A stretch of DNA of 64,000 bases from Nannochloropsis oceanica (Eukaryota; Sar; Eustigmatophyceae; Eustigmatales; Monodopsidaceae): NCBI GenBank assembly GCA_004519485.1, contig CP038131.1:1003001-1067000 (forward strand). Direction: 5' to 3'. Under the pieces are notes generated by a model. That model saw only the letters and a list, made by a program, of their open reading frames with translations. It was not told the DNA's origin and did not search any database. The position numbers were made by a program, and so were the translations under genes. This document shows, piece after piece, positions 24,897 to 64,000 of this stretch (its first letter is position 1; each line of letters opens with the position of its first letter).

Positions 24897-25863
24897 CGTA
24901 TTGAATCGTCTCTTGTCGTGGACAAGAACATAAGAGTCATGATGAATAAATAAGAGAGAGCATGTCTATGAGAGCGAGATGGCCTATCTTTCTCCTACAC
25001 CCTGCCTACCCCTACCTAAGACCCCTGTCCCTGTTTTTGAAAATAAAATGAGTCAAAAATAATCAAAAGAAATGAATATGAAAAACCTGACGACCTGCGG
25101 TACTACTTTTTGGAAAAAAAAGGCATGACAATCGAATTTATGTATGGGTATGAATTCCATCACAAATAGTTGACAACGAGAAACAACCAACTCTCCTTAG
25201 GCAAGACAACAAATCGTTTAATCGTTTCACTGCCTCTCACCCTGGCACCAACAAGCCACGACCCCCCCACGTCGTCATACACACCTACGAGGCCTCTTCA
25301 GGCGCGCAGCGTCTGCGGTGGTATCGGTTGTGAAGTACCGACACGAAGTAAGCGATTGAGTGAAACGCCTTCGCTCGCCTTCTCTGCAGCTCGCGGGCAC
25401 AGAAAAAGAAAGGGGGCGGCGCCAAGTCCTACCTATTTCCAGGCCAATGCAACCCGTCTGCGTGCCTTATTGCTCGCGGAACAGATTTGGTAACGATGTT
25501 AGAAGGGTGATGGGGCAGGTGGGCAGGAGCACGTGGCGGTGCGGTGGCAAGGGAGTGCTGTCCTCGGCCGTTCCCATCTCCTCTGCCCATGGGAGGGCGC
25601 GTTGTCCAGCATATCGACGCACTGCGAGCAAACAACACAAACCTCATCTAAATACAACGGTGGCCGAAGAGAAGGTTTTTGCACCCTTCTCACTCCCGCT
25701 CCTTCGGCTCCATGGTCAACATCATCGCGGTATCATCCCCCCTTCTGCTTGCCCCACTCACCAACCCCACTCCATCACCCCACTCTACCACTAACATACA
25801 CATAGGAGAGCGACAGCAACAGCAGCACCTACATCTGCAGTCACTCTCTGCCACATAAAAAAA
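24897..25863. other. Intergenic region, SYS1 to CENP-C
   Basis: The first part is AT-rich 3' flank of SYS1; the later part is GC-richer and must contain the CENP-C promoter and leader (a C-rich stretch, then AAAAAA directly before the ATG). Short open frames (25170-25805) show no domain. Confidence 0.4.
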
Positions 25864-28488
25864 ATGGCGTCCCTCGAGGCCATGATGCCTAACCAGGCCA
25901 GACAGTCCACTCCTGGCGACAAAGAAAAGATGGTGAAGTACCGGGCCTCTCAAGCCGCCAACGCCAGTGGTATCGCCTCTAAGCTCAAGGATATCCAAGG
26001 GAGACGTACGGGGTTGGTAATTCATGATCGAGTGAGCAAGGACTCGGAGGGTTTCGAAGACATCGATGCATTTTGGGAGCTCGCTTCAACGGGTGCTGAT
26101 GAGCTTTCGGAAAGAGGCAGCAGCGCCGGAGGGAGGGCTGCCCGTCGTGCAGCCGCGGGAGCAGGCAATGGAGGAGGAAACAGTGTGGGGAGATATTCAC
26201 GTGAGAGTAATGGGTTAGAGCTGGGGCTAGATTCGACCCCAGGTGGGGGAAGTACGATGGGAAGGAGGAGCAGTGGTGTGAGTAGTTTGGGCATGCCGCT
26301 GAGTGATGATGTGTCGATGGCGAAGCGAGGAGGAGGTAGAGGGATGAACCGACGATCTACCCTGCCGGCTGAGGCCATTGCGGCGGCTCGCTCTCGACGA
26401 AGCAGTATACTGTCGACCACCTCGTCATCTCTCCCTGCTTCCTCCACCCCTCTTTCGCTTGATGGTTCCTTGCCGGCCCGCAGCGACGAGGAAGACGGGG
26501 CGGAAAGGGACGACAGCACCCCTGCCAGCCTCCCGGCTCGAGCTACGGGTGCCGCTGCGACAGCTGCTGCTGTCCCTCGTCGTCGGTTGGACTTTCTTCG
26601 CAACCAGAAGGGAAGCCTGGGAGGGTCTGCAGCTGTGCTGCGGCCTAGTGGCGGGAAGGAGAGAGGGAGGGAGGGCGGACAGGATTCGGGGGAGGAAAGC
26701 GAGGCGCCGACCGAGGAGGAGTTCCAGGGGGAGGAAGACGCGGAAGCGGCAGCAGCAGCTGCAGCGGCGGTGGCGGCACGACGAAGGAGTAGCATGGGAG
26801 GGGAAGAGGGAGGGGGTTTTGATGGTGACTGGGCGGCCGGGCGGAGTGATGATTATATGGGGGAAGAGGACGAGGAGGGAAGGAGGGAAGAAAGGATTGA
26901 CGGAGAGAGTCCTGTGAAAGGGACGGAGGAGGAGGAGGAGGAAAAGGAGAAGGCAGCGGCGGCAGCTAAGATCAAGAAGGAGAAGAAAGGAGCAGCTGCT
27001 GCGGCCGCGGCGGTCAAGAAAAAAGCGACAGCAGAGAAGAGGAAGAAACAAAACAAAGAGAAGCCTAGGAATGAGTCAGACACGGAATTGTCGTCCTATG
27101 AGGAGGATGGGGGCGAGGACGGAGAGGAACGCCGCAAAACCCAGGAGCGATTTCGACGCCTGCGCTTGTCCGAGTACAACCGTGAGATGGGGGGAAAAAG
27201 TTTGCTGCAGGGAGAGGAAGGGGGAGAGGGGGGAATAGGGGAGCGAAGGTCGACGAGGAGAAAGGTGCAGCCATTGCAGTTCTGGAGGAATGAGCGGGTG
27301 CTGTATGCCGTGGAGAGCACGGAGGGTGTGGATGAGAGTAGGAGGAAGGAGGGCGGGAGGGAGGGCGGGGTGGATTGCATGATGATGAAGGAGGTGGTGG
27401 TGGCAAATGATACGCCAGTGGCGAGGAGGAGGAGGAAGAGAAAGGGAGGGAAGTCGACCGCCACTGCTGGGAAGATGAGCAAGCGTGGGAAGATCGTTGA
27501 AGGGGAGGAGAGAGGGAGGGAGGACGGGTTGGGGGTGATGGACCCCGAGAAGGTTTACAAGAAACACCCGGGCCATGTGTATGTGAAGGATGGTAGCGGG
27601 AAGGGCAAGGTGTGGGACGAGCGGAAGGCGCTCCGGGCGACACGAAGGGTGGTGATCCGGGAGGAGCAGGTGGTGATGCGACCCTTGGAGAACGAGGAGG
27701 AGGAGGGGGTCGCTTTGGAAGCTGGGCATGCTTTTAGGGTGTTGCAGGTGGCTCGGTCCGCGGATGATCGAGAGGCGCATGAACCGTCGTTGCTAGGATA
27801 CCCGGGGTGGGTCGCAGGGCACATGTCCCTGATGCCGAGGAAGGGTAAAGACCCCGAAAACGTTGGTCCGTGCTCTCAAGTGTTCCATGTCTTGGATTGC
27901 GAGAAGAATTCGTTGGAGCTGGCGGTGGGGGAGTTGGGGGAGGAGGCGTTCAGTGAAGGGATGGCGACGAGATTTCTTCTGGGGAAGGGGGATACGTTCT
28001 ACTTGCCGCCGATGAACGTGTACCGGTTGTTCAATCATTCGAAGCGGGGGAAGGCCAGGGTGTTTTGGACGATCGTGAAGCCCTGGAGCGTGGAGGAAGG
28101 GGAGGGAGGAAGGGGGGGAGGGGCCGATTCCCAGAGTCAGAGTCAGGAGGTGATGCGGATGGAGGAGGAGGGAAAGAAGGAGGTGCCTGCGCCAGTGGCG
28201 GTGAAGCGGGCGAGGAAATCGTCTGTGGCACCGACGCCGGTGGGAAAGAGGGAGAAGGGGAAGAGAGATTCCTCCATTGCTACGGCGACCAAGTCGGGAA
28301 AGGGGGCAAGAAAGAGTAGTATGGCAGCATCGGCAGCGGCGGCAACGGCGGCAAGCGCAAGTGAGTGCGAAGAGGAGGAAGAGGAAGAGGAGGAGGAAGT
28401 GGCAGAGCCGAGCGGGGAGGAGAGCGGAAGTGAGCAGGGGGTGGAGGCAAGTGAGAGTGAGTCGTCGGACTCGGAGATGTCAGAGTAA
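25864..28488 (+). CDS. CENP-C/Mif2 centromere protein
   Basis: Single exon, 874 aa. CENP-C bridges the centromeric CENP-A nucleosome to the outer kinetochore. Three family parts are visible. Near residues 45-75 is RRTGLVIHDRV followed by GFEDIDAFW, similar to the N-terminal Mif2 conserved patch. Near 461-475 is RRSTRRKVQPLQFW, the CENP-C motif (RRS..R..P..FW) that contacts the nucleosome. From about 650 to 745 is a cupin fold with LGKGDTFYLPPMNVYRLFNH and ARVFWTIVKPW, the dimerising Mif2 domain. The linkers are acidic or Lys/Ala-rich and disordered, and the last 60 residues form a Glu/Ser-rich tail after two Lys/Arg patches. Length is within the range for the family (yeast 549, human 943). 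The ATG has a purine-rich AAAAAA context. Confidence 0.9.
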   Translation: MASLEAMMPNQARQSTPGDKEKMVKYRASQAANASGIASKLKDIQGRRTGLVIHDRVSKDSEGFEDIDAFWELASTGADELSERGSSAGGRAARRAAAGAGNGGGNSVGRYSRESNGLELGLDSTPGGGSTMGRRSSGVSSLGMPLSDDVSMAKRGGGRGMNRRSTLPAEAIAAARSRRSSILSTTSSSLPASSTPLSLDGSLPARSDEEDGAERDDSTPASLPARATGAAATAAAVPRRRLDFLRNQKGSLGGSAAVLRPSGGKERGREGGQDSGEESEAPTEEEFQGEEDAEAAAAAAAAVAARRRSSMGGEEGGGFDGDWAAGRSDDYMGEEDEEGRREERIDGESPVKGTEEEEEEKEKAAAAAKIKKEKKGAAAAAAAVKKKATAEKRKKQNKEKPRNESDTELSSYEEDGGEDGEERRKTQERFRRLRLSEYNREMGGKSLLQGEEGGEGGIGERRSTRRKVQPLQFWRNERVLYAVESTEGVDESRRKEGGREGGVDCMMMKEVVVANDTPVARRRRKRKGGKSTATAGKMSKRGKIVEGEERGREDGLGVMDPEKVYKKHPGHVYVKDGSGKGKVWDERKALRATRRVVIREEQVVMRPLENEEEEGVALEAGHAFRVLQVARSADDREAHEPSLLGYPGWVAGHMSLMPRKGKDPENVGPCSQVFHVLDCEKNSLELAVGELGEEAFSEGMATRFLLGKGDTFYLPPMNVYRLFNHSKRGKARVFWTIVKPWSVEEGEGGRGGGADSQSQSQEVMRMEEEGKKEVPAPVAVKRARKSSVAPTPVGKREKGKRDSSIATATKSGKGARKSSMAASAAAATAASASECEEEEEEEEEEVAEPSGEESGSEQGVEASESESSDSEMSE

Positions 28489-52022: not shown

Positions 52023-55000
52023 ATGGGCGGCGGTGGCCAGAGGACGATGGTACAAGCTATCTTTGAGGTAAACATACCGTAGATTTGTTGAAATAGTCGT
52101 GGAGGCCTTGCCTCCTGGGACCCGTTACGAGCTGAGCACGGCTCCTGCACTTGTGTTTGTCGTCGTCGCCGGGCGGAAGTGAATGACTTATGAATGATAA
52201 GGCTTATGTGTGTACACTCTTTACTGTTCCAGTTTTAATGCCTCCTATACTGCAATTCTAGCAATAAATTTCCATCACGACGAGATCACCCTGACACTCA
52301 CATGCACACCCGTATCCCATGTAACCCATACACCAGGCCCCAGCCGCAACGACAACGGCAATCAGCGCAACGACACGGATTTTGGACATCCCCTTGACGG
52401 AAGATGGTCGCAATATCCTATCGCCTCATCGTCAGCCACAGCAGCAGCAACCACAACCCCAAACCATCCCTTCAACCTTCGCCCAACCTTTCCCTCGTCC
52501 CCCAGCTCGCAACATCTACGAGAAACGGGACGGTACTCCGTTTTGGAACGCCCCCTTAATAGTAGCCATAGCTGCCAACATCATCTGGCCGGCCATGCTT
52601 CTCGTCTTAACGATATGGAGCATGTTGGTTGTCCTCTATTTCCGCCTCACCCGCTTCCTAACCGAGACCCTTCTCCGGACGCCCGCCGTTCACGTCCATG
52701 ATGGCGACGACGCCCCCGTGGATATGGGCCTCTACTTCTTTGGACTCGACAACCGCTGCGAGAAGTGGATGCCCTCCCCTCCTGTCTTTTCTGACTCCTT
52801 CTCTCTCCCTGCCGCCACCTCGTCCTCCTCCTTCTTCGGTGGCACCAAGAAAAACAAGAGCACCAATGACCTTCCCCTCCCCCGAGGCCATTGCCAGTTC
52901 TTCGACCCCAACAAACCCACCGTCATATACGTGCACGGCTTTTCACGTCGGACCACAGGTAAGTACCCTGGACAAGAATGAGATCGGCCTCTTTCTTACT
53001 TGTGGGGATGGTCATAAACACTCATGCCCTCCCTCCCTCCCTACATCCAGCACGACGATTCCGCGAGACATTCAACTGGTCAAATAATGATAAGCAGTAT
53101 GGACTTGATATCAATTCAGCGGATCGTTGGGTCCGAGAGGGGTGGAATATCGGGATTTTCTTCTGGAACAACCATGCTGACGGTGCGTTTGGGAGGGAGG
53201 GGAAAAGAATTGTTGGAGGGAAGTAAAGGGTATGTTGCTTTCTTTTTGAAGGAGGGAATGGCATTTGAAGAGATATGATATTATTTCCGGGCCATTTACT
53301 TACATATTTCTCTTTCTTGCCCTTTCGCATTCCCACCCATCCAGAGGAAATGCCTCAAGATACGGAAAGCAAAATTTGGACTTCCAACGGCCGCTGCGGA
53401 ATGCGTTATCGTACCTTCTGCCCCAAGAAGGGCCACGTCACCTTCTACACCTCCTCCCGCCCTTCCTCCTCCATCTCCCAACAACTCGCCAATCTACTCA
53501 CAGACGTTTTTCACGGTTCCCGGGCCCCCTACCGCCTCGTCGGCCACAGCTTAGGTACCCAGCTGGTAGTCCACGCCACCACCCTCCTCAGCCAGCAGAA
53601 AGACCGGGAGGAGAAAGAGGCCGCTGCCGCCATGGTGACTGCCACCGCTGCAGCAGCAAAGGCAGCAGCAGTAGCAACAGCGGGGATGGCGGCAATAAAG
53701 GTGGCTCAAGATGGGACGTATGGGAATGGAAAGGAGAGGAAGAAGGCCATCAAGACAGCCAAGCGCGTAGCGGCCATGGCCAATGCCGCCGCCACGGCTA
53801 CAGCTACAGCTACCGCAGCAGCAGCAGCAGCAGCGACACAGAAGGCACCGGTGCAACTGCCCACGAGAATATGCTTGTTGGATGCTTTTGCGACGTTGGG
53901 AGTGAAGGCTTACCTCTCTGGGTGGCCAGTCATGATGGTGGTGCAAAGAGAGGTGGTGGCGCTGCGTGATCTCGGCATTGTGTTCGAGCAGTACCAGACC
54001 AGCATGATCGGTCGTCGGGGGCTGCTCTTGCGGCATCTTACTGCGTTTGTGCAGCTTGACCCTCCCGATATCCCATGGTACCGCCTTCGGGCGCGACACG
54101 TTGCGGCAGTTCACATGTATTTCCTCTCCTTCAGTCATTCGGTGGATGGGCCTAAGCTCAAGAAAGCCGATCTTCGACGGCATCAATCCGCAGAGATTTG
54201 TTTCAGCTTGTTAAATGGAAAAGGGGGGAGTTTAGCGACCGGCTTGAGCGGTTTGAATGGCAGCGGCAGTGAGAGCAGCGGCAGCAACAGCATCAACAGC
54301 AGCAACAGCATCAACAGTGGCTGGGTGACGGCTGCCTCCTGTATTGGCCTCCCTGCTCTCGCTGCCAAAGCCGCACCGCCTCCCTCTTCCTTTACAACCT
54401 CCTTGCGAACCTCGACCTCGCTCTCCATACTGAGTCACAGGAAGAGCCAGAACAAACTCATCCTTGAAATGGACTTGCAAAACTTGCTCCAACCACCTCA
54501 AATTGAAGATGACGAAACTCCCTGCCCGACCACCGTGCTATGTACCACTACCAGCAGCAGCAATAGCAGTACCATCACCACTAGCAGCAGGAGCAGCAGC
54601 ATCAGCAGTGGCCCTCGTAGCGTGGGCTTCAGCGCCATACTCCGTCGTCGGCTAGCCTCCTCCAAATCCAGCGCGCTGAGCAATGGCAACCTCAGCACCC
54701 TCCAAGAGTCCATGCCTCTCCTCCCTTCCAACATTGCCATTCCCCCTCCCCTTCCTCTTGTATCCACCGTTTCCGCTCTTTCCAGACCGCAGCTGCAGCA
54801 GCAGCAGGAGGAGCACCAACAAAATCAATACCCGAACGGTCGGCAACGACACGAGCGATATTCCCCTCGGGCTTATGACGGGCATAACATGAATCATCTG
54901 CGGTGGTTGAAGCCCTCTAACTATAAGGAGGTGGAGGTAGGTGACTTTCCTCTCATGGCTCGGGCTTCAGACGCGGAGGTGAGGGAGCTGATGAAGTGTA

Positions 55001-55059
55001 ATTATGTCTACAAGCAGTATCATGGGCACTTGTTTTTGAGGGTGTCAAGGGCGTGGTGA
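52023..55059 (+). CDS. Membrane-anchored alpha/beta hydrolase (lipase/esterase-like)
   Basis: Four exons: 52023-52067, 52337-52958, 53051-53182, 53345-55059; 837 aa. The first exon encodes MGGGGQRTMVQAIFE. A strong membrane segment follows (IVAIAANIIWPAMLLVLTIW, about 70-100). The hydrolase region starts with KPTVIYVHGF (strand and oxyanion turn), then GLDINSADRWVREGWNIGIF, and the nucleophile elbow LVGHSLGTQLVVHA (Ser in GHSLG). An Ala/Lys-rich insert of about 80 residues separates this from RICLLDAFATLG, where the acid residue may lie. A probable catalytic His cannot be assigned with certainty. The next 300 residues are Ser/Pro-rich and disordered. The last 50 (NHLRWLKPSNYKEVEVGDFP; YVYKQYHGHLFLRV) look conserved. 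Substrate unknown; a lipid is plausible given the anchor. The first exon assignment is moderate; the rest is firm. Confidence 0.8.
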
Positions 55060-56316
55060 GTGAAATGAGGGGTAGGTGGGGTATACCTGAATCAAAATCT
55101 TCGTTCCAGAGAATATAATCAGTAGGTCGATCGCCTATGTATATGTGAATACACAGTGGTACAAAGCAAAATAGCGAGGACAGATTTGTTCAAACAGATA
55201 ATAAAAGCAATTAAATAAATTAGAAGAACGACAGCAGGCGGACGGCTTCCTTCAGGAGAGATAGATCAAATAGAGAACAGTTATTACGCATGAAAACAGA
55301 AAAGCAAAAAGAAAAGGTCATAAATGAGCAACAATTGTACTAGCTACTTCCTTCCAATGTGCTTGACTTGGCCCATCCATTGCATTTCTTGTTTTGGCTT
55401 ACCGGTGACGTACCATTCTTGTCATCGCTCTCGACGAAGGACAGCTGTGCTTGAGGCTCTCGAGGCTGGTCTCTCCTGACTTGGTGACGTCTCGACTTCA
55501 GGCCCTGGCAGATGGGGCCTATTTTTTGCTCATTGAGGTTGGCATGGCCGGTGCTGCCACCCACTTTCTACCTGCCTAGCTTTCTTGACCCTGTGTGTGT
55601 GTGGTGGAATAGGAAAACGTTAGCAAGTTTCATCGATTTCGGCGAGGGCTCTCTCTGCACGCTTACGTGGGTGTCAAGAAGGGGGCGCCTTCCTTCTCCC
55701 GCCATGCCATAACTTCAGGCGAGAAGCCACTGACGCGTGCATGCATTATCGCAAAACCTGGACTCGACGGTACAAATACCTTCACAAGACTTCATGAGCA
55801 TTGCATTGCCAGGGTACTGTGATTTTTATTTTTCGCGGGAGTGTTCCATCCCTCTCGTTATGACTCTTGTTGTTGACAAGGCATGGCCAGACTCAGAAGG
55901 AAAGAAACCAGCGAAGAGCTGCAAATTTCGATTGCGTGTCTCATGCAGACCCAGGGCCACAGACGACAGTGAGACGTGTGTGTGGCATGTGAACACGCAG
56001 GAAGCATGGCTGTCGCCTCCTGCCATGTTTAGGCCTGGACGACATTCACCTCCTCGTGATGCTTTGTCATTCCCCCGCCGGCCGCCGACGGCCCACACAC
56101 CTACCCCCATTCACGTGACACGAAACCCCAGCTTGTCACTTGTGCCCCATACTACGCATGCCTCTCACGCCTAAATTCCTTTACCATAATACACAGCATA
56201 TAGCACATAACACCTACGCAGTTCCGTACTCCTTCCGCGGTCGCTGCCACTTCTTCTCATCACCTTTGCTGCTCTTCGCCCTCATTCCATCCTTCTATTC
56301 TTCGACACATCATACC
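55060..56316. other. Intergenic stretch, no gene seen
   Basis: 3' flank of the hydrolase gene, then the promoter region of the Rieske gene. A 145-codon plus frame (55737-56174) has no domain and is not called. Confidence 0.4.
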
Positions 56317-56382: not shown

Positions 56383-59274
56383 ATGCCCTTTTCCCCGTCT
56401 TCTTCCTCATCCTCATCCTTCCTCGTCGTTGCCGCCGCCAGTGCGGTTGCCGCCACTGCCCTGTGCGCCTCCTCTGCTTTGAGCTGCAGTAGCGGCAGCA
56501 GCACCGTGCAGGCCTTCCTGATGCCCTCCCTCACCATCTCGTCAACAATCACGTCGCGCCATCGTCATCAACACCAGCGCATCCCTCTTCCTGCTATCAC
56601 CATGAGAAGAAGAGACATCCCTTCTTCCTCCTCCTCCTCCTCGCTACAAGCAATCAGCCCTTTCCAGGAGCACTATCAAGGCAACGAAAATAAAAACAAT
56701 AACGACGATGAAGACGAGGATGAAGCCAAGGCTGCTCTGACCCACGGCAGCAAAACGGCCACGGGTAAAGGCAGCAGCAGCCGTACCAGTAACCTATCTT
56801 CCCTCAGCGACGAAATAAGCAGCAAGTTCCAATCCCTATTTGGTACTATGGCGAGCTTCATCGGACAGGACGCCGCTGCTGCTACTGTTTCCGCTGCTGC
56901 TCTCGCCAAGACCAAGGGTGGGGCCGGTGGCCGTGGACGCAGCGCCACCATCACGCCTGGCAGCCCTTCTACCACCACAATCTCCTTCCTCGAGCCCCGC
57001 ACCCCCGCGGAGCTTGCCGCTGCTACCCTCGCAAATCCGTGCGATAGTGCCTTGCCTACCTTTACTTCTACCCCTCCTTCCACCACCTCCCGGCGTCCTC
57101 CCTCCCTCTCGGCGACAGACGCTGCGCTAGGCAAGGTCCCCGATCCTGTTAATGAAAATATTGCAAGGATTTCGAGCAAAGTGCCAAACACCTGGCTGGC
57201 TGTCTGTCATTCCGCAGATCTGAAGAAGAAGGAGCTGAAAAAGGTGTGGGTGGACGAGAAACCCATCTGCTTGTTCCGGACCTCGAGTGGGGAAGTGAAG
57301 GCCATCAGTGACATCTGCCTGCACCGGGCTGCTGCCTTGTCGGATGGGTGGTTGGATGGTGACCTTGTAGTATGCCCTTACCACGCGTATAAATTTGACG
57401 GGGAGGGGAAGTTGAGATATATCCCCGGGGTAGACGAGGGTATGCTGGCGAAGAATAAACGGACGGCGAGGACCGTATGGTATAAGACCTACGAGCAGGG
57501 GGGGTTGGTGTATATCTTCCCCGATGCCATGAGGGCAGGGGCGATCGAGCAGCACGTGAAGCCTTTCCTCATACCCGAAGCAGAGGATCCGTCGTTTCGG
57601 GTGGTGGAAGGCGTGTGTGAGATCAAGGCGAGCGCGAATTTGGTGGTTGAGAACTTGCTTGATATGCTTCACATTTCTTACGTACACTCGTTTGGTAACA
57701 TGCAGGAACCGCTGCCATTTGAGGAGAATTATGAATACTTTTTTGACGACGAGGCGTCCCAATTGCTGCCATACGCGAGGACGACCTTCAAATACCGGGC
57801 AGGGCCAACGAGCATCAGTAAAGTGGTGGGGAAAATTCAGGAGGTGGTGGTGGAGAATGAGTTCCACTTGCCCTACACCACCGTGACGCGCGTCAAGTTC
57901 GGCCAGGACGTCAAGACGATCTACGTGGTGGCTGTGCCTGTTGAGGACGGGTTGACGGTAGTCCACTACAAGCTGTATCGAAATTTCATGTATGTTCACC
58001 CAAGGGACGAGTCAATTGTGAATAAAGGCCTGGATCAGTTTTTCCAGTCTGTCATGCGCTTGACCCTGAATGAGGATAAGGATATATTGGAGTCGTTGTA
58101 CCAGGAGCACCAGGAGGGTTATGTCCTGAGTAGATATGATAAGCCCTTGAAGATTTTTAGGAAGACGATGAAGGAGTTTATGGAGGCGAGCAGGGCGAGG
58201 GAGGGTATGGCGGAAAGGCGGGCATTGGAGATGGAGTTGTTAAGATTGATAGAACGGACGGAGAGGGGGAGGAGGGCCACCCGGGGTCAGCATGCAACGA
58301 TTTTGTCGATTGTCAAGGGGTTGGAGAAGGGCTTTGCACGCCAGTTTGAGAGGGAGGAAGGGAACATGGGCGAGGTCGTGATTGAGGACAGTGCTGTAAA
58401 CGGGACCTGGCATCTGGTCTATGCGAATCCGGGTGACCTGTCTGCCCTTCCTCCCGCCTCCGAGGAGGAGGAAATGGGGAGGCAGCAATGGCAGAAGGGC
58501 AGGAAGAGGGTGTTGCGGCCGGTGCCGGATGCCACGGCTGCAGCTGCTGCTAGTGCTCGACGCCTTATGACCCCCGCGCAGCAACAGGCAGCCTCCCGGC
58601 AACAGCGCAAGCAGCAGCAGCAGCAGCAGCAGGTAGAGGAAGATGGATCTACCTCTCCTCCTTATTCGTCTCATCACTTTCCTTCTCCTCCATCTCCTAC
58701 CCCTGTCCCTGTTTCTACTGCTACAACTGCTGCTGCTGCTCCTCGCTCTCCGCGTGAGGCTGAAGATGTCTTGTTATATTCCGAAGAGGGATCTGCGCGG
58801 TTGCAGGAACGCCTGCGCTCAGCGGGTGGAGAGAGATATTTGCTTGACTTTACCCCGAGTAAAGGCCGGCCATTGTGGGCGGATACGGACGAAAGCACGC
58901 AAACGATCGACACGGCTAACAATTTATTGAGCAATACGGCGGTTTACCAAGGGCTGCTGGGTATCACGACGAAGGTGGAATTGAACGGCGTGTTGTCCAC
59001 ACCGGGAATAGGAAAGGGAGGGAGGGAGGGGAAGGAGAGAGATGGGGCAGGAAAAGGGCATAGACAGGATGTACAGTTTACGTCGGCGAAGGTGGATGTC
59101 GGGGGTTTTCAGGTGATGTTCCCTCATATGGACGTATTTGGGATAAGTGGTTGGTTGGACACAACATTTGTGGATGAGCATATAAGGATTTGTCGGGGAA
59201 ATCGCGGATCAGTTTTCGTGTTGACGCGTCGGCCGTTGGTTGCTCCAGGCAAGGTGGGAAAGGAGGAGATTTAG
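56383..59274 (+). CDS. Plastid Rieske non-heme iron oxygenase fused to a PAP/fibrillin domain
   Basis: Single exon, 963 aa from 56383; in-frame ATGs at 56317 and 56158 are alternatives. The N-terminus has a hydrophobic signal peptide ending in VQAFLMPS, the Phe motif of heterokont plastid leaders. After about 200 disordered residues, the Rieske 2Fe-2S domain shows ICLHRAA (C312, H314) and CPYHAYKF (C331, H334). The mononuclear iron site is in VENLLDMLHISYVHSF. The PAO/ring-hydroxylating oxygenase fold continues to about 610. From about 615 a second unit begins (LLRLIERTERGRRAT; VNGTWHLVYANPGD) and ends GISGWLDTTFVDEHIRICRG followed by VFVLTRRP, the hallmark of plastid lipid-associated fibrillins, with a low-complexity insert in the middle. 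Fibrillins sit on plastoglobules and thylakoids, so the oxygenase may be anchored there and act on a pigment or other lipid. The fusion has no internal stop. Confidence 0.88.
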   Translation: MPFSPSSSSSSSFLVVAAASAVAATALCASSALSCSSGSSTVQAFLMPSLTISSTITSRHRHQHQRIPLPAITMRRRDIPSSSSSSSLQAISPFQEHYQGNENKNNNDDEDEDEAKAALTHGSKTATGKGSSSRTSNLSSLSDEISSKFQSLFGTMASFIGQDAAAATVSAAALAKTKGGAGGRGRSATITPGSPSTTTISFLEPRTPAELAAATLANPCDSALPTFTSTPPSTTSRRPPSLSATDAALGKVPDPVNENIARISSKVPNTWLAVCHSADLKKKELKKVWVDEKPICLFRTSSGEVKAISDICLHRAAALSDGWLDGDLVVCPYHAYKFDGEGKLRYIPGVDEGMLAKNKRTARTVWYKTYEQGGLVYIFPDAMRAGAIEQHVKPFLIPEAEDPSFRVVEGVCEIKASANLVVENLLDMLHISYVHSFGNMQEPLPFEENYEYFFDDEASQLLPYARTTFKYRAGPTSISKVVGKIQEVVVENEFHLPYTTVTRVKFGQDVKTIYVVAVPVEDGLTVVHYKLYRNFMYVHPRDESIVNKGLDQFFQSVMRLTLNEDKDILESLYQEHQEGYVLSRYDKPLKIFRKTMKEFMEASRAREGMAERRALEMELLRLIERTERGRRATRGQHATILSIVKGLEKGFARQFEREEGNMGEVVIEDSAVNGTWHLVYANPGDLSALPPASEEEEMGRQQWQKGRKRVLRPVPDATAAAAASARRLMTPAQQQAASRQQRKQQQQQQQVEEDGSTSPPYSSHHFPSPPSPTPVPVSTATTAAAAPRSPREAEDVLLYSEEGSARLQERLRSAGGERYLLDFTPSKGRPLWADTDESTQTIDTANNLLSNTAVYQGLLGITTKVELNGVLSTPGIGKGGREGKERDGAGKGHRQDVQFTSAKVDVGGFQVMFPHMDVFGISGWLDTTFVDEHIRICRGNRGSVFVLTRRPLVAPGKVGKEEI

Positions 59275-60826: not shown

Positions 60827-62020
60827 CTACCCCTTCCTTTTCCCTTCAATTGAAGCCCCCTCCAGAAACTTATACACGCTTGAAAAGTCCTTCCCGCCCC
60901 ACCCAGCGACCTGCATCAGCGCATATACCTGCTGCGCCACCGCTCCCAAGGGCAAGGGGACCCCTCCCACTTTGTTTGCTACATCCCCCGCAATTCCTAA
61001 ATCTTTCTGCATTAACCTAGAGGTGAATCCCCCTTGGTAGTCATTTGAGGAAGGGGCGGACGGAATAACGCCCGGGCAGGGGTTGTAAAGTTCCGTGACC
61101 CAGGAGCGGCCGCTGGAGGAGTTGAGGACCTGAGAGAGGGAGGGAACAAGGGAGAGTTGGCCGGGGTGAATTTATGTATGGGTGGGTAATGGGTCTGGCA
61201 GAGGACACGGCAGGGAGGGGAGGAGGAATTCAGGGAGAGGGATTGAGTAACGCACCCCGTTTAAGATCAGGGGGTCCATCCCCAAGGCCACGCCCAGACG
61301 CATAGCTTCCGCGACGCCAATCATATTCACTCCCAGCACTAAGTTGTTGCATATTTTGGCAACGGCCCCCGTGCCAGGCCCGCCGCAATGGACGACCTTC
61401 TTGCCCATGTGCTTCAATATAAACGCCTCGGCTTTCTCGACGCTCTTCGCCTCTCCTCCCACCATGAAAGTCAGCGTCCCGGCCTCTGCTCCCCCTATAC
61501 CACCACTCACGGGGGCATCAACCATTTCGAGGCCTCGAGTAAGGGCTTGAGCGGCTAAGGCCTTGCTTGCCGTGGGGTCAATGGTGCTACCATCAATTAG
61601 GAGTGTCCCTGCCTTGGCGTGTGGGATGAGTACCTGTCCCACCACGGCTTCCACGTGCTGCGTGGCCGGGAGCATAGTCATGATAATTTGAGTTGTCTGC
61701 GCGATTTCCTCGACGGAGCTGGCAAGGCGGGCGCCTTTTCCTTGGAGAATAGCCATGGCCTTCGGGTTGGTGTCATAGATGACGACTGGGAGGTCAGTCT
61801 TGGAAAGCAAATTGCTCGCCATGCGCGACCCCATTTGTCCCAAACCAATAAAACCCATTTTAATCGGCGATGAAGAGTTTGAGGTGCTCTGATGGCGGCT
61901 AGTGATAATGACAAGGGGATCGGGAGTGCGGTCCCTCAAAAAAGGCGGCGTTCTGCAGAGAAAGGAGGAGGTCATGTCGCGATATAGGAGACGCCTTGCG
62001 GGACAAGGCCAGCAATTCAT
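60827..62020 (-). CDS. 3-hydroxyisobutyrate dehydrogenase, mitochondrial
   Basis: Two exons, 62020-61256 and 61129-60827; 355 aa. NAD-dependent enzyme of valine breakdown in the mitochondrial matrix, oxidising 3-hydroxyisobutyrate to methylmalonate semialdehyde. Visible: presequence MNCWPCPARRLLYRD..., cofactor motif MGFIGLGQMGSRMASNL, IDGSTIDP, substrate motif DAPVSGGIGGAEAGTLTFMVGG, catalytic Lys in GTGAVAKICNNLV. The second exon carries NSSSGRSW, YNPCPGVIPSAPSSNDYQGGF and LMQKDLGIA with DFSSVYKFL, which match the HIBADH subgroup rather than glyoxylate reductases. The upstream GTG-started frame is ignored because the ATG at 62020 opens a good presequence. Head-to-head with an aromatic amino acid hydroxylase, another amino-acid catabolism gene. 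Confidence 0.94.
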
Positions 62021-62417
62021 GATCAAGCTTTCACTTGAGTATATACTTGCTCGTTTCCTTTGGTGGTGCACGCAGAATTTCCTGTACTGTATGGGGCGTG
62101 GGTATGGGTGTCAGAGTTGGCCTTGAAGAAAAGAGGCTCTCTCCGCTGATTGGCGATGTTCGGTGCGTTGCCTTCTCTCTAGAAGGCTTTGACACCCTCT
62201 CGATCCTATTTGAGGACAGTCCACAACAGCCTAGAGGCTTCTCGAGGACGTCGCTTGGTATTTCTGCCAGGCCCCAGACGCTGGCGGCATTTTTTTGGGG
62301 CCTTCGCTTCCCTTGCCTCTTCGTTTCCTGTTCTTTCAAGGCATGACATGCTCAATTTTCCACGCTCCCAGACACAGACACAGACACAGACTTATAACCC
62401 CATCGACTCTTGTAAAC
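62021..62417. promoter_or_regulatory. Divergent intergenic region, HIBADH / aromatic hydroxylase
   Basis: 397 bp between start codons facing away from each other, both genes of amino-acid catabolism; shared regulation is possible but no motif was identified. A short CAGACA repeat (62371-62389) lies upstream of the plus-strand start. Confidence 0.45.
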
Positions 62418-64000
62418 ATGCTAATTCCTCGACACTCCTCGGGTCTGGTGTTGTCAGCGGCCGCATCAATGCGTCGCGTCACTGCCACTGCGGCTGCGGC
62501 TGCTTCTACTGTTGCTTCTTCCCGGCTCCTCCCGCTGACGTCCTCCTCCTCTTCCTCCTCTTTCTCGTGCACCCCATCCTTATCCTCGCTTCTCCTGCAC
62601 CACAGTCCTTTGCACCGCTCCATTCTTGAATTTGGTCGCCCCTTTTCTTCTTCCGCCACAATCAGCAGTAGCAGCACCACCGACCACCCCAACCACCACC
62701 AGCACCATCCCGAAGCCGCGGAATATGTGCAGAGTGCCGCCGAAGAAGGAGGGACTGACGCTTTTTTTGACAAAACCTCAGTTCTGATGGAAGTGGAAGA
62801 CTGTCCGGGGGCCTTGGCGGAAATGCTGTCCTTCTTTGCTGCCCATAATGTGAATATCACACGTTTAGAGAGCCGTCCGACAAAGAAGCAATTGGACGGA
62901 AAATTCACCTTTGTCATGTACCTCGATTTTGATGGCTCTCGAGGCGAAGCGCACGTCGACGCTCTATTGAATGAATTGGGACAACACACTCATAGTCTAC
63001 TGGTGTTGGATAAGACGGACGTGCCTTGGTTTCCCCGGCAGGCCTCGCAGCTGGACGCCATTGCCAATCGGGTGTTAGACGCAGGGGTGGACTTGACGAG
63101 TGAGCACCCGGGATTCTCTGACCCTGTTTATCGTGCCCGACGGGGTGAGCTGGCGGAGGTGGCGAGGAAGTATGTGCATGGGGAGATTATTCCACGGATT
63201 GAATATACGATGGAGGAGGTGGAGACCTGGGGAGCGGTGTGGAGAAGACAGGAGGAGTTGCTGCAGCGGCATGCCTGTAGAGAATACCTGGATATATTGG
63301 GGTTGATGAAACAGGAGTGTGGATATGGGCCGCAGAGCATCCCACAACAGGCGGACATCACCACATTCTTGTCGAGGAGGACGGGGTTTCGCTTGAGGCC
63401 CGTGGCGGGATTGTTGAGCTCGAGGGACTTCTTGAATGGACTGGCCTTTCGCGTCTTCTTTTGTACGCAGTATATCAGGTGAATGAGGAGAAAATATTGA
63501 TTCCGCCTCCTATCCACGTGACCTTAACCCCTTCCCTTTGTTGGCACCGGTTTGTCGCTTACTGCAGTGCCAGCTCTTACGCTCATCGGAGACCGTCACT
63601 CCCTCACCTATTCCCCTCCTCTGACAATCCCACAAACACGCATACCAAAAGGCACCATTCCCGCCCGCTCTACACTCCCGAACCTGATATATGCCACGAG
63701 CTCCTGGGTCATGCCCCGCTATTTGCGGATCCTGATTTCGCGGACTTTTCGAATGGTGAGGATGGGTTGAGAGGGAGGAAGGGAGGGAGGGAGGGAGGGA
63801 GGGAGGGAAGGAGGGAGGGTAAGATTGACTCGCTCTGCGCTGCGCATGAAGCGAATGCAGACGCTTGTCTTATTAATCCAATTGCATCATTTCCCCTCCT
63901 ACGGTCCTTTCATCTACCACCCTCCCTCCCTCTCTCTTTCCCTCCCTCCCTTAGAAATCGGTCTCGCCTCCCTCGGTGCCTCGGACGAAGAAGTAAAGAA
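62418..64000 (+). CDS. Aromatic amino acid hydroxylase (phenylalanine 4-hydroxylase-like) with ACT domain, cut by the right edge
   Basis: Exons 62418-63478, 63652-63755 and 63955 to beyond 64000; at least 404 aa here. Iron- and pterin-dependent enzyme; most likely converts phenylalanine to tyrosine. The first ~100 residues are Ser/Ala-rich with Arg, a transit-peptide-like leader ([20 protein letters not shown]). An ACT regulatory domain follows at about 118-195 ([31 protein letters not shown]). The catalytic part starts at [19 protein letters not shown] and shows [47 protein letters not shown], then across intron 1 the iron motif [16 protein letters not shown] (His near 369 and 374). Exon 3 begins [16 protein letters not shown], which continues the family consensus. 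The C-terminal third lies outside the window. Intron 2 contains (GGGA)n and (CCCT)n tracts. Confidence 0.93.
63771..63820 (+). repeat. (GGGA)n purine tract in an intron
   Basis: A tandem GAGG/GGGA run at the start of intron 2 of the hydroxylase gene. A complementary (CCCT)n tract lies at 63916-63952 just before the acceptor, so the transcript could fold these together. Confidence 0.8.

Follow-up and report, generated by a model that had tools for sequence, protein, structure and literature searches.

The role proposed for fibrillins is to bind small hydrophobic molecules and transport them (PMC5507956, excerpt), and two described proteins combine a fibrillin with other domains. FBN11 of Arabidopsis is a kinase-fibrillin fusion (PMC8145590, excerpt), and an FHA-FHA-fibrillin chimera has been described from Ostreococcus (PMC2716323, excerpt). 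Here we describe a gene of Nannochloropsis oceanica in which a fibrillin domain follows a Rieske oxygenase. The gene occupies positions 56383..59274 on the forward strand of the window analysed, a stretch of 64,000 nucleotides from contig CP038131.1 (positions 1,003,001 to 1,067,000, assembly GCA_004519485.1), and at the DNA level the fusion is a real and unusual architecture. In the literature searched we found no report of this Rieske-fibrillin fusion, though the algal survey of Lohscheider and Bartulos 2016 may list the protein. In its main text, the paper on the genome of N. oceanica CCMP1779 uses neither 'Rieske' nor 'fibrillin' (PMC3499364), and the excerpt of a paper on diatom fibrillins does not contain 'Rieske' (PMC10160619). 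The Rieske, VanA_C and fibrillin families are each known; their combination in one frame may be new.

A Rieske oxygenase and a fibrillin in one reading frame

An earlier note on this DNA had described the frame as uninterrupted, and translation bears this out: between the ATG at 56383 and the stop that ends at 59274 lie 963 codons with no internal stop. Over the same bases the other two forward frames contain 37 and 44 stops, and the stop-free run around the gene extends to 1051 codons; the longest such run in 40 simulated (Markov) windows of 64 kb was 393 codons. Further in-frame ATGs are located upstream at 56158 and 56320; the start at 56383 is preferred because only this one places the hydrophobic segment of the leader near the N terminus. 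In searches of the same genome, covering 29.26 Mb in 32 contigs and matching intron-split genes exon by exon, this gene was the only full-length match to the 963-residue protein. Of the other matches listed for the whole protein, the best, in gene C11, reaches 30% over about 140 residues, and none is a further copy of the fusion. Searches of viral contigs with the oxygenase part and with the whole protein found no relative.

The oxygenase half is defined by two Pfam matches obtained with the whole protein: a Rieske [2Fe-2S] domain (PF00355, 75.6 bits against a cut-off of 20.3, E 2.9e-21) at residues 270-352 (57190..57438) and a VanA_C catalytic domain (PF19112, 41.3 bits against a cut-off of 23.5, E 2.4e-10) at residues 414-598 (57622..58176). 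The first contains a CxH...CxxH site, with Cys312, His314, Cys331 and His334, which from the roles known in the family we take to be the ligands of the Rieske cluster. The second contains a 2-His-1-carboxylate site of His430, His435 and Asp565, presumably binding the mononuclear iron, together with Asp427 as the presumed bridge. When the protein is aligned with 47 bacterial relatives (40 of the 80 genome loci fetched and all 7 plasmid loci), all eight of these residues are among the 11 columns that are invariant in the 48 rows, which supports the claim of a complete Rieske cluster and mononuclear iron site. An alignment of 41 rows has 14 invariant columns, again with all eight metal-site residues.

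A sequence search of solved structures ranks DdmC first (E 4.1e-18). In an AlphaFold2 model of residues 251-963, 192 of the 713 residues reach a pLDDT of 90, mostly in the Rieske half, and a Foldseek search places the oxygenase closest to dicamba monooxygenase (3gob; E 4.8e-22, TM 0.81 by target length), with GxtA/SxtT also matched (E 4.7e-21). By its domain content and modelled fold the oxygenase is DdmC/VanA-like, and we predict the N-terminal half to be a working Rieske mononuclear-iron monooxygenase of the DdmC/VanA class, as the explanation favoured below would have it.

The fibrillin half spans about residues 609-950 (58207..59232), with its left edge judged from the alignment. Pfam places PAP_fibrillin (PF04755) on the whole protein with 49.6 bits against a cut-off of 22 (E 6.3e-13); this match comprises two stretches, and a position is given for the better one alone (residues 922-947). 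The last 357 residues scanned by themselves match the same family with 54.7 bits (E 1.6e-14). The GWLDTTFVDE..RICRG block, which the earlier note had named as the hallmark of a C-terminal PAP/fibrillin domain, lies at 59149-59229, and the Pfam result agrees with that identification. The conserved C-terminal residues of fibrillins include an Asp (PMC5507956, excerpt). These residues, the Asp among them, are present in GWLDTTFVDEHIRICRGNRG, aligned to fibrillin 5. A search of PDB sequences with the C terminus gave fibrillin 5 (E 0.0012), and Foldseek searches with the fibrillin-domain model, which is of poor quality, placed rice fibrillin 5 at ranks 1-3 (E 3.5e-3 to 5.3e-3); no fibrillins other than fibrillin 5 are listed in the PDB searches, so that these matches assign no subfamily. 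Within the domain is a low-complexity Ala/Gln/Pro insertion at about residues 690-800 (58450..58782), absent from the four fibrillin rows of the same genome that cover this place in the alignment. The fibrillin part begins near residue 609, some 10 residues past the end of VanA_C at residue 598, and in the AlphaFold2 model a single helix spans this joint (protein residues 584-628, model residues 334-378).

The leader and the relation to PAO-type enzymes

The whole chain is preceded by a leader (56383..56607) comprising a hydrophobic segment at residues 9-34, with a mean hydropathy of 2.19, followed by the motif VQA|FLMP (56506-56526). A low-complexity linker with no Pfam match above cut-off then leads to the oxygenase (residues 76-250, 56608..57132). 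We take the A/S/G-F leader motif to be a mark of heterokont plastid import. A hydrophobic segment of at least 1.73 together with this motif is found in five of seven compared genes of the same genome, namely PetC, the fibrillins C14, C15b and C19, and the Rieske gene C6; the leader of C11 is weaker, and for the fibrillin C15a the tested frame offered no candidate start. The heterokont plastid motif reported earlier resembles those of other plastid-type leaders of the genome. Together with the genome's size and two strong VDE-family matches (252 and 248 bits), leaders of this type are in keeping with a eustigmatophyte such as Nannochloropsis. Past the leader no membrane-strength segment was found, the highest 19-residue hydropathy mean in residues 60-963 being 1.15, which supports the contrast that had been drawn with membrane-bound plastid enzymes. 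The isoelectric point of the mature protein (6.96, compared with 5.0, 9.0 and 9.8 for three fibrillin domains of the same genome) is uninformative on location. In a diatom, a signal peptide or a membrane domain is reported for nearly all fibrillins (PMC10160619, excerpt). The fusion protein is probably nuclear-encoded and, judging by its leader, imported into the plastid.

Eleven places in the genome match the Rieske family. Judged by their frames, they comprise four PetC-type genes in tandem, three genes of PAO/TIC55-like type (C11, C6 and C12), one choline-monooxygenase-like, one ferredoxin-like and one mitochondrial gene, and the fusion gene itself. The four tandem PetC-type (cytochrome b6f Rieske) genes, at C5:414142-421763, are about 2.5 kb apart, and three of them are near-identical over the compared frames.

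A C-terminal CxxC motif is a hallmark of the PAO/PTC52/TIC55 family. The 963 residues of the fusion protein contain none, and the PaO domain (PF08417) is not listed for it at E values up to 10, with the proviso that HMMER filters drop weak matches. Gene C11 combines a PaO domain (E 4.1e-17) with a CSAC motif and a hydrophobic segment at its C terminus (1.72); the C6 exon shows no PaO match and no CxxC. The PAO/TIC55-like Rieske gene C12 (C12:268150-268746) has a CSSC motif, no PaO match in the fragment scanned and no hydrophobic segment of that strength in the frame tested (highest mean 0.64); it also matches VanA_C, a domain found at the search threshold at only two places in the genome, C12 and the fusion gene. 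The phylogeny was built twice. The fusion protein has no starred sister, and its end branch ranks second in length in the tree of 35 rows and first in that of 33. Forcing it together with the PAO-type genes of the same genome costs 3.6 log units (approximately unbiased (AU) test, p 0.271), so that kinship with these genes is neither supported nor rejected. By its domain content, with VanA_C and no PaO match, the oxygenase is nevertheless not simply a re-anchored PAO-type enzyme.

Candidate functions

We think it fairly probable that the protein is a Rieske monooxygenase, soluble in the plastid, and that its fibrillin domain docks the enzyme on a lipophilic substrate or feeds such a substrate to it. 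The fibrillin/lipocalin domain would take over the role that a membrane anchor has in other Rieske enzymes of plastids, docking the soluble enzyme on a lipid surface such as a thylakoid margin or a plastoglobule; alternatively, it would hold the lipophilic substrate, probably a xanthophyll or a prenylquinone, beside the active site. Enzymes of the DdmC type form trimers, and within these the bridging Asp carries electrons from each subunit's cluster to the iron of its neighbour; ferredoxin is the natural electron donor in plastids. In the fusion enzyme plastid ferredoxin would probably supply the electrons, which would enter at the Rieske cluster and cross Asp427 to the iron of a neighbouring subunit, where O2 would be activated and the substrate hydroxylated. 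A trimer would also bring together three fibrillin domains, which would favour attachment to a lipid surface. Trimer, electron donor, docking and substrate are all proposals.

A possible, though tentative, alternative is that the fibrillin domain is purely an address, taking the oxygenase to plastoglobules to modify or break down the prenyl lipids or pigments stored there. Seven of the 12 Arabidopsis fibrillins found by proteomics are strongly plastoglobule-enriched (PMC5507956, excerpt), and the failure to find a membrane segment past the leader is consistent with such a role. However, other fibrillins are found in the stroma and on thylakoids (PMC5507956, excerpt), and fibrillin 5, which alone represents the family among the PDB matches listed, is stromal (PMC8145590, excerpt). 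The interpretation first given to this gene is supported in part: the fusion, the metal sites, the fibrillin identity by sequence and the leader have all stood, whereas delivery to plastoglobules, in view of these other locations, is no more than a possibility.

The domain might instead act as a scaffold in a quinone pathway, binding a prenyl chain or a prenyl-diphosphate synthase in the manner of FBN5, with a prenylquinone or quinol hydroxylated by the Rieske half. The sequence and Foldseek matches to fibrillin 5 point in this direction, as do the interaction with solanesyl diphosphate synthases of FBN5, a protein hypothesised to aid release of the prenyl chain, and a plastoquinone defect (PMC5507956, excerpt). 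We nevertheless regard this as unlikely, given that the subfamily is unassigned, and that 10 long frames scanned in the window gave no match to a quinone enzyme, or to a carotenoid enzyme, with shorter and multi-exon genes lying outside the scan.

Also doubtful is a Rieske-type carotenoid oxygenase to which the fibrillin domain presents a xanthophyll, converting neoxanthin to vaucheriaxanthin or carrying out the ketolation that gives the canthaxanthin and astaxanthin of the red bodies. The vaucheriaxanthin-forming enzyme of N. oceanica has been described as unknown (PMC10157934, excerpt), and the red bodies of this species contain astaxanthin and canthaxanthin with no clear homologue of the green algal beta-carotene ketolase (PMC11211512, excerpt). 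As a plastid oxygenase with a lipid-binding domain, the fusion is a reasonable candidate for a pigment step, and vaucheriaxanthin formation is the most interesting candidate role. To our knowledge only non-Rieske enzyme classes carry out oxygenation towards vaucheriaxanthin or ketocarotenoids, and we found no literature on a Rieske carotenoid hydroxylase in haptophytes. The genome has 24 P450 match places, a rival class of oxygenase for these steps. The sequence itself selects neither pigment step, and sterols or quinones may be the substrates instead.

About as doubtful is an enzyme that acts on a xenobiotic, a small aromatic compound or a sterol, as its class relatives do, with the fibrillin domain as a passive passenger. 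The nearest solved oxygenases are demethylases and small-molecule hydroxylases. All 11 families listed by NCBIfam fall under their cut-offs, the best being 4beta-methylsterol monooxygenase with 80.8 bits, far below its cut-off of 600. Among the neighbours of the seven bacterial plasmid relatives there is a VanB-type reductase gene in one case, a P450 gene in one and ABC-transporter genes in two, with none listed for the remaining three. The substrates of the relatives say little, however, because identity to the aligned relatives is below 30%, and the plastid-type leader and lipid-binding domain argue for a plastid lipophile.

Least credible, and in our view very improbable, is that a Rieske oxygenase and an independent fibrillin, the products of neighbouring genes or of alternative transcripts, have been read as one frame: low-complexity stretches do occur in frame, but the frame is free of stops throughout, the two domains are almost contiguous, and a hypothetical start at Met609 leaves no hydrophobic leader (best mean 0.25), unlike the fibrillins C14, C15b and C19 (1.73 to 2.22). 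We infer a single transcript for the Rieske-fibrillin frame.

Elsewhere in the window, a stop-to-stop frame at 62235-63482 (+) encodes an aromatic amino-acid hydroxylase with ACT and Biopterin_H domains; this gene is likely to contain an intron, because its match to the Biopterin_H profile is cut short by the end of the frame (positions 1-152 of 331). A dehydrogenase with an NAD-binding domain, of the 3-hydroxyisobutyrate dehydrogenase type, lies at 61175-62020 (-). An 897-codon frame at 25795-28488 (+), possibly a centromere protein, has Mif2_N and CENP-C_C matches that are both under the Pfam cut-off, and a 594-residue frame at 53275-55059 (+) has long low-complexity stretches and an alpha/beta-hydrolase match (DUF900), also under cut-off.

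Comparison with described systems

If the fusion is real in the cell, it would give a soluble oxygenase access to the lipids of the plastid with no need for membrane helices, and the assistance that fibrillins are known to give to enzymes in trans would become that of a single polypeptide. It would also be a concrete candidate, open to knock-out, for the pigment steps of N. oceanica that have no assigned enzyme.

The fusion protein shares with PAO, PTC52, TIC55 and CAO a plastid-type leader and Rieske oxygenase chemistry, but differs from them in domain content, motif and the lack of a membrane segment, as described above. With DdmC and SxtT/GxtA it shares the Rieske and catalytic domains, the set of ligands and the overall fold, but identity in the structural alignment is only about 20%, and the solved chains, of 310-350 residues, have neither a leader nor a fibrillin domain. 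Fibrillin 5 (rice, 9jwr; also 9kaf) has the same C-terminal GWL.T.VDE.RI.R block and the same order of predicted secondary structure; it is, however, a stand-alone protein, whereas the domain described here is fused to an oxygenase and carries a long insertion.

Two known proteins are built on a comparable plan. The Ostreococcus chimera likewise combines a fibrillin with extra domains and has low-complexity stretches between them (PMC2716323, excerpt), but its extra domains are FHA domains where the N. oceanica protein has an oxygenase. In the chloroplast protein FBN11, too, a catalytic domain at the N terminus precedes a fibrillin domain at the C terminus (PMC8145590, excerpt), with a kinase in the position that is taken here by the Rieske oxygenase.
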